Shown: positions 41,660 through 44,905 of the stretch, piece by piece
Position numbering within the stretch: position 1 is the stretch's first letter
Layout: the number at the start of each line of letters is the position of its first letter
Assembly (NCBI GenBank): GCA_950096615.1
Contig: CATNCP010000016.1
Location: 1 to 54,666 of the forward strand
DNA from: an uncultured Kangiella sp.
GTDB lineage: Bacteria; Pseudomonadota; Gammaproteobacteria; Enterobacterales; Kangiellaceae
DNA: 54,666 nucleotides
Direction of reading: 5' to 3'
The notes under the pieces: model-generated
What the model saw: only the letters and a program-made list of their open reading frames with translations
What the model was told of the DNA's origin: nothing
The model's database searches: none
Translations under genes and position numbers: made by a program

Positions 41660-44218
41660 TTAAATACACACCTCTTCTGCTGGCTGACGCATATTATACT
41701 GAGTCGCCATAACACGTCCGTAAGCACCGGCATTTTCGATAAGGATCAAATCCCCTTCTTTCGTTTCTGGGAAAGGAATCTCAACACCTAACTTATCAGT
41801 GCTTTCACAAATAGGTCCGACTACCGTAGCAAGATGTTCTTTCTCTGCATCAAGGCGAGACAGGTTGACGATGTTGTGGAAAGAACCGTACAAAGCTGGC
41901 CGCATCAGCGAGTTCATTCCTGTATTGAGCCCAACATAGTAGTAGTTTTGTTTTTGTTTAACCTGCGTCACTTTAGATACTAGAACGCCAGTATTCGCAG
42001 ATATATAGCGCCCTGGCTCGATCCATAATTGGTACTGAGGAAACTCAGCTTTAATCAGTTTCAAACTTTGATCAATTTGGCTCATGGTTAACTCAGTTTG
42101 TTGTGAGCGCTCTTTAATACCAAAGCCTCCACCTAAGTTAAGATACTTGACGCGAGGGAATATAGAGGCTGTCTCAGCTAACAAGCGAGCATGTTCAGCC
42201 CAATGCTCATTAGTCAAAATGCCGCTTCCTGCATGAGCGTGCAGTCCAACAATATGAATATTGTGCTGTTGAATAACCGGTAACAGCTCCTCCAGCTCGT
42301 AGATAGGAATACCGAACTTAGACGTTGCGCCAGCGGTTCTAACATTCTCATGATGGCCTTTACCAATATTTGGGTCGACCCTTAAGAAGATCTCTTTTCC
42401 CTCAAAAATTTCAGGCCATTGTCTTAAGGGGTAACTGCTATCGAGCGTTAAACGGATCTCTTTCTGTAGAATCTCATCGTACTCCCGCTTATCCGCAAAA
42501 TTCGGTGTGAAAAATATGCGTGACTTATCGATACTTGGGAATAAACCAAGAATATGATTCACCTCACCGCTTGAAACTGTTTCGAAACCAATCCCTTGGT
42601 CGTAGGCAGTTCGCAGTACATCAGGGTTATTGTTGGACTTAACGGCGAAGAAAACACGATCAACCGCACTGATGCTTTGTAGGTTGTGAATATTATGGCG
42701 GATAGAATCTAGGTGGTAGATGTAAGCGCTGTCACGTTCTGAGAGACACATCTCAATAGTCTCTTTCTTATCCTGCCACCATTTTCTGCTTTCGACTAAT
42801 CTGTCAGTCTGCTTTAACTCTTTTGCCGTCGGCCCTAGTATTTCACTGTTTGGATTATTGGTGATCAGTAATTCGTGCAAAGCTGATATCACTTTGCTGC
42901 TATGTTCATCATCAATAACAAAGGTTAGGTTCAAATCTGAAGCAGCCTGCGATAACAAGTAGACTTTATACGTTTCGAAGATTGAAAATGCTGGAGCGAT
43001 TTTATGCAAAATGGCTCGGACGTTTTTACCAACAATAGAAACCGCGGAACAGTTATGCATCACATTAACACGACACATTTCCGATAACTCATCAACCAGG
43101 CCTTTGAGCTGCCTTTCGTTTATTACTTGAGTCAAACTGTCTAAGCTAACGGTAATATTCGTTTCTGACGTTGACACCAAGTCTACAGAGACATTGTGAT
43201 GCTTGAATATAGAGAAAATATCAGCCAAGAAACCAGCTTGCTGCCACATTCCCTGACTTTCCATTGATATTAATGTGATCTGCTCTTTTGCGGTAATAGC
43301 TTTGACCATGCCCCAACTGTTTTCAATTCCGCTAATCACCGTACCATCAATATCAGGCTCGATGGTTGAGCGGATATAAACTGGGATTTGACTAATTTGA
43401 GCGGGACGAATAGCTCGCGGGTGCAATACTTTAGCACCAGCTGACGCCATCTCTTGGGCTTCTTCATAATTGAGCTGCTTTAGCAGCCGAGCACTCGCCA
43501 CTTGATTAGGGTTAGCGGTAAAGATACCTGGGACGTCAGTCCATATTTCCAAACGTTCAGCCTCTATTTTAGCCGCAAAATACGCTGCTGATGTATCAGA
43601 GCCACCACGCCCCAACAATACCGTTTCATCGTCACTGGTATTCGCGATAAAGCCTTGTGTGATAACGATTGATGTATCGCTAACATCCTTTAATAAATTT
43701 TCGTCACGCTCAAAGTGACAGCTAGCACACAAATAATCCATGTTCCGACTTTCTCGTGCATATAAAAAATCACGAGCATCCAACCATAGGACAGACTCAT
43801 CAAATACTTTTGTAAGGTAGGTTTGACCAATTGTTGTGGACCATAACTCCCCTTGAGACATCACTAACGCTCTAACGCGATCGCTAACTTCGCCCAGTAA
43901 ATGAATACCATCTATCAGCCGCTTTAAATAACTGTAACGCTCGCTTAATAAATCTAACGGCAACCCCATCTCTTTAATAATCTTTTGATGTAATTCCACT
44001 AGCTCGTCATAAGCAGTTTGATATTCCCCAAGTTGAGCAAGCTCTATTAGAGCCTCAAGTCGGTTGGAAACAGTGCTAACAGCAGAGTGCACAACAAACA
44101 CCTTCTTTCCTTTAGCACGTTTACGCTTAATGATGCTCGCAATAGTATCCCAGTTTTGACGAGTGGAGACGCTAGTCCCACCAAATTTAAGCAAGTGCCA
44201 AGAATCGTTTGTTGCCAT
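41660..44218 (-). CDS. lysAC: Bifunctional aspartate kinase / diaminopimelate decarboxylase
   Basis: Fusion of the first and last enzymes of lysine synthesis: aspartate to aspartyl phosphate, and meso-DAP to lysine. I start at ATG 44218 (852 aa), which has GGGGA 8 nt upstream, rather than at 44233, which has none. Aspartokinase domain about 8-300 (KFGGTS at 11-16, GRGGSDTSA near 205, WTDVPGIFTANP near 228). Two ACT domains at about 315-455, expected to sense lysine. The LysA half runs from 490, with PLP lysine K527 (FFAVKSNN), HAHAGSG, GGGFG and CESTD. No homoserine dehydrogenase is attached. Preceded by an attenuator-like leader. Confidence 0.95.
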   Translation of the reverse strand: MATNDSWHLLKFGGTSVSTRQNWDTIASIIKRKRAKGKKVFVVHSAVSTVSNRLEALIELAQLGEYQTAYDELVELHQKIIKEMGLPLDLLSERYSYLKRLIDGIHLLGEVSDRVRALVMSQGELWSTTIGQTYLTKVFDESVLWLDARDFLYARESRNMDYLCASCHFERDENLLKDVSDTSIVITQGFIANTSDDETVLLGRGGSDTSAAYFAAKIEAERLEIWTDVPGIFTANPNQVASARLLKQLNYEEAQEMASAGAKVLHPRAIRPAQISQIPVYIRSTIEPDIDGTVISGIENSWGMVKAITAKEQITLISMESQGMWQQAGFLADIFSIFKHHNVSVDLVSTSETNITVSLDSLTQVINERQLKGLVDELSEMCRVNVMHNCSAVSIVGKNVRAILHKIAPAFSIFETYKVYLLSQAASDLNLTFVIDDEHSSKVISALHELLITNNPNSEILGPTAKELKQTDRLVESRKWWQDKKETIEMCLSERDSAYIYHLDSIRHNIHNLQSISAVDRVFFAVKSNNNPDVLRTAYDQGIGFETVSSGEVNHILGLFPSIDKSRIFFTPNFADKREYDEILQKEIRLTLDSSYPLRQWPEIFEGKEIFLRVDPNIGKGHHENVRTAGATSKFGIPIYELEELLPVIQQHNIHIVGLHAHAGSGILTNEHWAEHARLLAETASIFPRVKYLNLGGGFGIKERSQQTELTMSQIDQSLKLIKAEFPQYQLWIEPGRYISANTGVLVSKVTQVKQKQNYYYVGLNTGMNSLMRPALYGSFHNIVNLSRLDAEKEHLATVVGPICESTDKLGVEIPFPETKEGDLILIENAGAYGRVMATQYNMRQPAEEVCI

Positions 44219-44255: not shown

Positions 44256-44290
44256 AAAAAAACCCGCAAAGGATGTCCTGTGCGGGTTTT
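44256..44290 (-). terminator. Leader terminator (attenuator) upstream of lysAC
   Basis: On the minus strand AAAACCCGCA is followed by C-AGGA-CA-TCCT-T and TGCGGGTT, forming a two-part stem of about 9 + 4 pairs followed by seven U residues. It lies between the leader peptide stop and the lysAC ATG (38 nt away), so it would end transcription before the structural gene. Its ascending arm contains ACAGGACA (44281-44274), complementary to a leader segment. Confidence 0.9.
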
Positions 44291-44379
44291 GATATTCGTT
44301 AGATTTATCGTTTCAGTCACCCACAGCAGAACAGGACACGTTTTTTAAGTGCCTTTTTACTGTGTTTTTTAACGATAAA
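44274..44379 (-). promoter_or_regulatory. Attenuation segments: competing pairings in the lysAC leader RNA
   Basis: Four segments in order. Leader codons 5-7 TTTATCGTT (44379-44371) match AACGATAAA after the stop (44312-44304), 9 bp. TGTCCTGT in codons 18-21 (44338-44331) matches ACAGGACA in the terminator arm (44281-44274), 8 bp. AGGCAC (44354-44349) can pair with GTGTCCT (44339-44333) to hide that segment, with a loop holding lysine codons 16-17. Stalling at lysine codons would free TGTCCTGT to seize the terminator arm. The pairing is read by eye; energies were not computed. Confidence 0.75.
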
Positions 44380-44391
44380 CTGTGTTTTCAT
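44317..44391 (-). CDS. Lysine-rich leader peptide of lysAC
   Basis: A 24-codon ORF (ATG 44391, TGA 44319-44317). Lysine occupies positions 2, 8, 9, 12, 13, 16 and 17, seven of 24, six of them as three adjacent pairs. It ends VLFCCG. It overlaps the competing RNA segments and is followed by the terminator at 44256-44290 and then lysAC. No Shine-Dalgarno precedes the ATG; the promoter position suggests a leaderless transcript. The role inferred is to report lysyl-tRNA charging through ribosome position. Confidence 0.82.
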   Translation of the reverse strand: MKTQFIVKKHSKKALKKRVLFCCG

Positions 44392-44398
44392 GATGTTG

Positions 44399-44426
44399 AA
44401 TATAGTAAATATCGAGACTTTGTCAA
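44399..44426 (-). promoter_or_regulatory. Sigma-70 promoter of the lysAC leader
   Basis: On the minus strand a perfect TTGACA (44426-44421) is followed by 16 nt and TATATT (44404-44399). Transcription should begin 6-8 nt later, at about 44392-44391, which is the A of the leader ATG or next to it. It lies in the 46-bp gap between the tadA stop and the leader ORF. Confidence 0.85.
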
Positions 44427-44437
44427 ATATATTTTAG

Positions 44438-44905
44438 TTATTTGTCACGCTTTGCTTTAAAAAAAGCCTTTAATTGCTGGGAACATTGCTCTTTTAAAAG
44501 GCCTGAATGGACTTCACAGTGGTGATTAAAAGACTCGTGTTTAAGGATATTCAACACGCTACCGCCTGCTCCAGTACGAGGATCTTCTGTGGCATAGACT
44601 ACACGACCTACCCTCGCATGAACTAAAGCCATAGCACACATCGCGCAGGGTTCTAGCGTCACATACAAGGTTGTATCAACCAAGCGATAGTTCTCAAGCT
44701 GCTTACCCGCCTCTCGCAAAGCAACGACTTCCGCATGAGCCGTCGGATCATTGCTCAATATCGGCTGATTAAAGCCTTCCCCAACGACCTCATCACGCTT
44801 TACCAAAACAGCACCAACAGGTACCTCGCCCTTATCCTTAGCCATTTCGGCTAACTCAAAAGCTCGTTGCATGTACTGGTAATCTTGTTCAGTGAATTTG
44901 GTCAT
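44438..44905 (-). CDS. tadA: tRNA-specific adenosine deaminase TadA
   Basis: Zinc deaminase that converts A34 to inosine in tRNA-Arg(ACG). 155 aa. Zinc and catalytic motif HAE (in HAEVVALREAG, about residue 57-59) and PCAMC (about 87-91) are present, with VGAVLVKRDEVVGEGFN upstream. The last 47 bp before the lysAC leader carry no terminator, so read-through into the lysAC leader is possible. A REP-like palindrome (44926-44953) lies 21 bp upstream of its ATG. Confidence 0.96.
   Translation of the reverse strand: MTKFTEQDYQYMQRAFELAEMAKDKGEVPVGAVLVKRDEVVGEGFNQPILSNDPTAHAEVVALREAGKQLENYRLVDTTLYVTLEPCAMCAMALVHARVGRVVYATEDPRTGAGGSVLNILKHESFNHHCEVHSGLLKEQCSQQLKAFFKAKRDK

Follow-up and report, generated by a model that had tools for sequence, protein, structure and literature searches.

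A lysine-codon leader peptide and candidate transcription attenuator upstream of the fused lysAC gene in Kangiella

The window, which is the whole stretch of 54,666 nucleotides of Kangiella DNA that was analysed, carries on its minus strand a lysAC gene, encoding a fused aspartokinase/diaminopimelate decarboxylase and thus the first and last enzymes of the diaminopimelate pathway. The product matches NF006515 (bifunctional aspartate kinase/diaminopimelate decarboxylase) at 1229.9 bits against a cut-off of 802, and at the 11 Kangiella and Kangiellaceae loci matched by this LysAC the identity was 62 to 91%. The gene likely starts at the ATG at 44218, although in the open reading frame list it begins at a TTG farther upstream (44233), and it is apparently monocistronic. 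Upstream on the same strand lies tadA (a match to NF008113), which ends at 44438, about 150 nt ahead of an intrinsic terminator that precedes lysAC. Between the two genes, the span of 44256 to 44426 (minus strand) singled out in an earlier note on this DNA runs exactly from the -35 box of a promoter to the end of the terminator T tract. The features are listed below in the order in which they are transcribed.

44399..44426, minus strand: sigma-70-like promoter, with -35 TTGACA at 44426-44421, a 16-nt spacer and -10 TATATT at 44404-44399 (11 of 12 consensus bases)
44317..44391, minus strand: leader open reading frame of 24 codons, translated as MKTQFIVKKHSKKALKKRVLFCCG followed by a stop (from the translation and its counterparts in the genus)
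44371..44380, minus strand: outer helix P1, 5' strand, GTTTATCGTT, from the end of codon 4 to codon 7 (from folding and a partner-swap test on 18 leaders)
44335..44353, minus strand: hairpin A:B inside the reading frame, GGCAC at 44353-44349 with GTGTC at 44339-44335, the loop holding Lys16-Lys17 (from alignment covariation)
44319..44326, minus strand: segment C, CTGTGGGT, predicted antiterminator strand over the final leader codons and the first base of the stop codon (from duplex prediction)
44303..44312, minus strand: outer helix P1, 3' strand, AACGATAAAT, directly after the stop codon (from folding and the partner-swap test)
44274..44287, minus strand: segment D, ACCCGCACAGGACA, terminator rising arm and loop, predicted partner of C (from duplex prediction)
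44256..44290, minus strand: intrinsic terminator with a tract of seven T (-18.4 kcal/mol)
41660..44218, minus strand: lysAC, fused aspartokinase/diaminopimelate decarboxylase (NCBIfam NF006515)

The earlier note had described a 24-codon frame with seven lysine codons, three times in adjacent pairs, then a strong terminator and a second, earlier hairpin, and each of these parts could be located and its coordinates checked, so that the observation as a whole is confirmed. The frame, at 44391-44317, lies between promoter and gene and has lysine at codons 2, 8, 9, 12, 13, 16 and 17, which is Lys2 plus three adjacent pairs in 7 of 24 codons. Such a composition is rare in the window, where among 389 ATG-initiated frames of 15 to 45 codons two had at least three Lys-Lys pairs and five had a terminator-like site near the stop; both features were combined only in the lysAC leader.

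A full-length LysAC match was found in 19 of the 20 genomes of the genus, that of the window included, the one without being G032, and in all 19 a leader frame and a terminator precede lysAC. In one of them (G026) a contig end truncates the leader, and a first half of such a leader lies at one end of a different contig in that genome (L106), so that 18 leaders are complete. The peptides range from near-identical to very unlike (for example MNLSTCNKKRTKKVSKKDAKANYCG and MNLNCIQAKKSVKKTLKPSVWISCVW), and 17 of the 18 contain five to eight lysines. When the complete leaders were aligned on hand-chosen motifs, the six pair positions held lysine in 16, 15, 17, 18, 18 and 14 of the 18. At four of these six columns both AAA and AAG are used, in ratios such as 8:8 and 9:8. 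Conserved lysine codons are what the earlier note had proposed to look for in relatives, and the residue is indeed kept while the codons swap, a pattern that points to translation of the leader. The exception is L018 (L018:4073-4254), with three lysines, no Lys-Lys pair and four internal methionine codons, which occupy or adjoin the places where Lys-Lys pairs formerly stood; this leader might also sense methionine or might be decaying.

The leader start codon stands very close to the promoter. In the window, 7 nt separate the -10 box from the ATG, and, counted from the first -35 base, the ATG lies at a distance of 34 to 36 nt in 17 of the 18 leaders with a complete region (the start of L004 being taken at the in-frame ATG, not the upstream GTG), the exception being L014. 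With a 16-nt spacer, a distance of 34 to 36 nt places the ATG 6 to 8 nt after the -10 box, approximately where transcription would normally begin. Judging from this spacing, translation of the lysAC leader probably begins on a leaderless message.

The terminator at 44290-44256 bears out the claim of a strong terminator after the leader frame, and counterparts of -12.3 to -18.8 kcal/mol stand between the leader and lysAC at all 19 loci, where GCGGG followed by six or more T was used to delimit the regions, which made the T run itself a selection criterion. Nine of its 12 pairs are invariant among the sequences that have them. Since this hairpin comes after the end of tadA (44438) in the direction of transcription, one might take the hairpin for the tadA terminator and the small frame for a chance occurrence. 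We consider this extremely improbable, because tadA and the frame are separated by a promoter-like site, the lysine codons are kept through synonymous change, and helices within the coding region covary. Furthermore, at three of the 19 loci (L015, L017 and L019) the upstream gene is, by eye, unlike tadA, and leader and terminator have stayed with lysAC.

The 161-nt leader region as a whole folds with a z score of -4.9, and none of 200 shuffled sequences folded as well. The earlier hairpin proposed in the note is A:B. In an alignment of the 19 sequences all 95 cells of A:B are paired, and four of its five pairs show compensatory changes on both sides; taken with the terminator, 99.7% of cells pair, versus 26 to 66% when the partners are slid, while further pair types were no better represented in these two helices than in shuffles (189 of 500). 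Helix P1, which joins the early leader codons to the bases directly after the stop, was seen in the predicted fold and tested by exchanging partners between the 18 leaders. Native duplexes had a mean of -8.06 kcal/mol versus -4.52 kcal/mol for swapped ones, the native pairing was better than its row median in 15 of 18 cases, and none of 20,000 partner permutations was as stable; P1 is weak in L005, L014, L016, L017 and L019. Relatedness of the species inflates both partner-swap and covariation tests, and with that proviso the compensatory changes support A:B and P1 as conserved helices.

The alternative to the terminator is predicted to be a helix between segments C and D, in which the last leader codons and the first base of the stop codon pair with the terminator rising arm and loop. 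Such a helix, sharing a strand with the terminator and overlapping the end of the leader frame, is predicted at all 19 loci, in each case ending at the stop codon. MAFFT alignment shifts segment C in L014 to L019, and C:D was therefore evaluated by duplexes rather than by columns. Covariation between the two segments is weak (native mean -16.1 versus -15.0 kcal/mol for swapped partners) because D hardly varies; the leaders of L015, L017 and L019 pair better on average with D of other species, and the own D ranks 14th for L016 and 9th for L014. Between 0 and 34 of 300 shuffled C segments paired with D as well as the native segment. The clearest covariation is in L018, in which the loop (CATAGAC) and the leader end that pairs with it (GTCTGTG) have both changed.

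A different pairing had been put forward in the earlier note, namely an 8-bp complement between the leader and the rising arm. In the window TGTCCTGT at 44338-44331, from the last base of codon 18 to the first base of codon 21, does complement ACAGGACA at 44281-44274 exactly, the latter being the upper rising arm and loop of the predicted terminator. The complement is perfect at 1 of the 19 loci, that of the window's own species. It was rejected as the core antiterminator on this count. This block is a species-specific addition beside the shared C:D pairing.

The leader peptide is basic and has, in the leaders compared, a cysteine one or two residues before its C-terminal end, and such a conserved residue could be taken to mean that the peptide is a functional small protein followed by a constitutive terminator. 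Yet this conserved end falls on segment C, the predicted partner of D, and the peptide ends themselves differ among species (CCG, GCG, SCG, DCG, YCG, CAW, CVW and CAR) while the pairing stays possible. A role as a small protein is hardly credible.

A riboswitch is the best-known bacterial control of lysine synthesis, and the L-box riboswitch often controls lysine genes. On this general ground, for which a passage in a 2005 study (PMC1262725) can also be adduced, and given the conserved strong structure at the leader, a metabolite riboswitch or a protein-bound RNA might control the terminator, with the reading frame incidental. That same passage reports no RNA element before the lysine operons of Actinobacteria; for lysine outside that group, it names the L-box. 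The earlier note had seen no L-box here, and this stood: a covariance search with RF00168 (E of 0.001) found none at the locus and none in any of the 20 genomes of the genus, its own included, and the same search was positive in 4 of 14 named control genomes. Moreover, no Rfam family reached its gathering score at the leader (the sole match in the window was a tRNA elsewhere), the predicted fold of the window leader consists of hairpins without a multi-branch junction, and the hairpin lies within a frame having conserved lysine codons. A riboswitch or protein-bound RNA is on these grounds very unlikely. Below the gathering score, the His_leader (RF00514, 26 bits against a threshold of 49) and Leu_leader (RF00512, 21.5 bits against a threshold of 50) models match the element from end to end; several unrelated sRNA families also match weakly, and two of these, BTnc005 and IsrM, outscore them by E value. 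The element is built like His_leader and Leu_leader, its membership in either family lying below threshold.

Outside the genus, inspection of 16 lysAC genes with usable upstream sequence (six from other Kangiellaceae, three from family f14 and seven from elsewhere in the class, with L022 dropped for having 46 nt upstream) gave no lysine-rich frame with a terminator. Short frames with lysine codons in L024 and L026 lie inside the upstream gene and lack such a terminator. In L085, from another family of the class, a terminator-like AAACCCGCCGGGATATTCCTTGCGGGTTTTTTTTT stands some 125 nt upstream of where the LysAC family match begins, with no lysine-rich frame. Nor was a leader seen in any of 15 regions upstream of unfused lysC or lysA, two of them in G032 and the rest in other Kangiellaceae. 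A covariance model, built from 19 of the 20 genus genomes, matched all 20 at an E of 0.01, the match in G032 (E of 0.0067) being unlike a leader; in 368 other genomes of the class it gave three matches under strict filters that may miss weak relatives, none of them leader-like. Within the genomes sampled the element is found only in Kangiella; those outside the genus were samples (394 and 229 drawn), and presence elsewhere is possible.

Taken together, these parts have the layout of his/trp/ilv-type attenuation, as the earlier note had held, with leader, hairpin A:B, terminator and predicted C:D pairing at all 19 loci. Of that note's interpretation, the lysine leader, the terminator and the missing L-box hold, and the named 8-bp pairing as shared antiterminator does not. 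Judged from sequence, the element very probably works as a ribosome-mediated attenuator of transcription, with charged lysyl-tRNA as its signal and lysAC as its target. We infer that transcription starts at or adjoining the leader AUG, so that translation would probably be leaderless. With ample Lys-tRNA, the ribosome would reach the stop codon and cover segment C (codons 22 to 24 plus the stop), whereupon the terminator (D:E) would form and transcription would end before lysAC. With scarce Lys-tRNA, the ribosome would stall on a lysine codon, open P1 and leave C free; C would then pair with D, the terminator would come too late, and lysAC would be transcribed. If the leader were not translated at all, P1 and A:B would fold the coding region onto itself. 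A:B has the structure of a protecting or pause hairpin within the leader frame, and may double as a pause hairpin by which polymerase and ribosome stay synchronized.

The 18 leaders were folded with each codon in turn masked by a ribosome footprint and the RNA cut just before the falling arm of the terminator, and the outcome is compatible with this scheme. By hand count, and leaving aside lysine codons up to codon 3, the predicted probability of the antiterminator exceeded 0.5 at 87 of 104 lysine stalls. With the ribosome at the stop codon it was zero, which is a consequence of the masking itself. A stall at the last lysine codon gave 0.5 or less in 11 of the 18 leaders (0.01 for Lys17 in the window's own leader, L001). 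The antiterminator is permitted in L001 by a stall at almost any codon between 2 and 16, lysine or not, and folding therefore does not single out the lysine codons; it shows that lysine stalls would permit read-through, and does not indicate a special placement of these codons. When no ribosome was placed, termination was favoured in 14 of the 18 species and the antiterminator in four, L001 (0.81) among them. For the full-length L001 RNA at equilibrium most stall sites favour the terminator, so that antitermination would have to be kinetic, chosen with the polymerase between D and E, and in the trp system the choice is likewise made while the polymerase sits there.

Other leader peptides followed by terminators, for threonine, tryptophan and histidine, are also present in the genus. 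At L069 (G000:C13:44007-44127, minus strand, and downstream) two serial tryptophan leaders, MKTLYVKNIWWWHVT and MTIINLATDMTQHQWWWSC, both with a terminator-like hairpin after them, precede a 3-deoxy-7-phosphoheptulonate synthase gene, and similar leader pairs occur at L107, L109 and L111. Serial histidine leaders, MIILQAQNHHHHHEKLMAG and MYIQLITTHHHHTLHWRRWDLL, each with a terminator-like hairpin, stand before hisG at L108 (G031:C5:132326-132447, minus strand, and downstream). At L076 (G000:C52:3100-3900) a threonine leader, MIIFNTTTTTTTIFPWEVDG, and a terminator-like hairpin precede an 823-aa open frame containing an aspartokinase, and the ATG of this leader lies, by eye, about 7 nt after a -10-like box. 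A spacing from -10 box to ATG similar to that of the lysAC leader was seen by eye both for the threonine leader before the thrA-like gene and for the first tryptophan leader of the same genome.

The his, thr, trp, leu, ilv and phe attenuators of gammaproteobacteria share with the Kangiella element a leader frame in which codons for the regulated amino acid occur in runs, hairpins that exclude one another and a terminator before a biosynthetic gene; the Kangiella element differs from them in its lysine codons, in the lysAC gene and in a start codon directly after the promoter. The earlier note knew of no well-described lysine attenuator, which is probably too strong a statement, for one based on a leader peptide is said to have been described in Thermus thermophilus by Tsubouchi et al. 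(2005, J Biol Chem). That system likewise controls lysine biosynthesis through a leader peptide with lysine codons; it reportedly has a short leader with few lysine codons and belongs to alpha-aminoadipate genes in another phylum, whereas the Kangiella element belongs to the diaminopimelate pathway. The L-box, too, serves lysine gene control, but it senses free lysine.

For leaderless attenuation, a passage in PMC10117765 describes a case in Sinorhizobium meliloti trpL (rnTrpL), which concerns tryptophan and another class, whereas in Kangiella the suggestion of a leaderless message comes from promoter spacing only. Another passage of that paper suggests that the Sinorhizobium small frame SEP5, with three lysine codons and near an aspartate-family gene, encodes a leader peptide; SEP5 differs in having six threonine codons in addition and in preceding an aspartate dehydrogenase gene, and that passage presents no attenuator for it. 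Neither lysine nor lysA nor lysC is mentioned in the main text of the attenuator survey of Naville and Gautheret (PMC2965389). A literature search that covered few subscription papers, and is thus a weak negative, returned no report of such an element in Kangiella.

The mechanism of attenuation is already known, and the noteworthy features here are the specificity for lysine and the diaminopimelate pathway together with the probable leaderless start. Taken at its widest, the proposal would be that a lysyl-tRNA-sensing attenuator of the diaminopimelate pathway replaces the riboswitch throughout the genus, on a leaderless message, in a genus that starts several leader peptides (Lys, Thr, Trp and perhaps His) directly after the promoter, some as two attenuators in series; we regard this as evenly balanced between right and wrong. 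The Kangiella case would show the same lysine task being solved by sensing tRNA charging, not free lysine, and would offer a compact element for comparing attenuator and riboswitch strategies. If the leaderless start is true, the genus would also suit the study of attenuation without a Shine-Dalgarno sequence.
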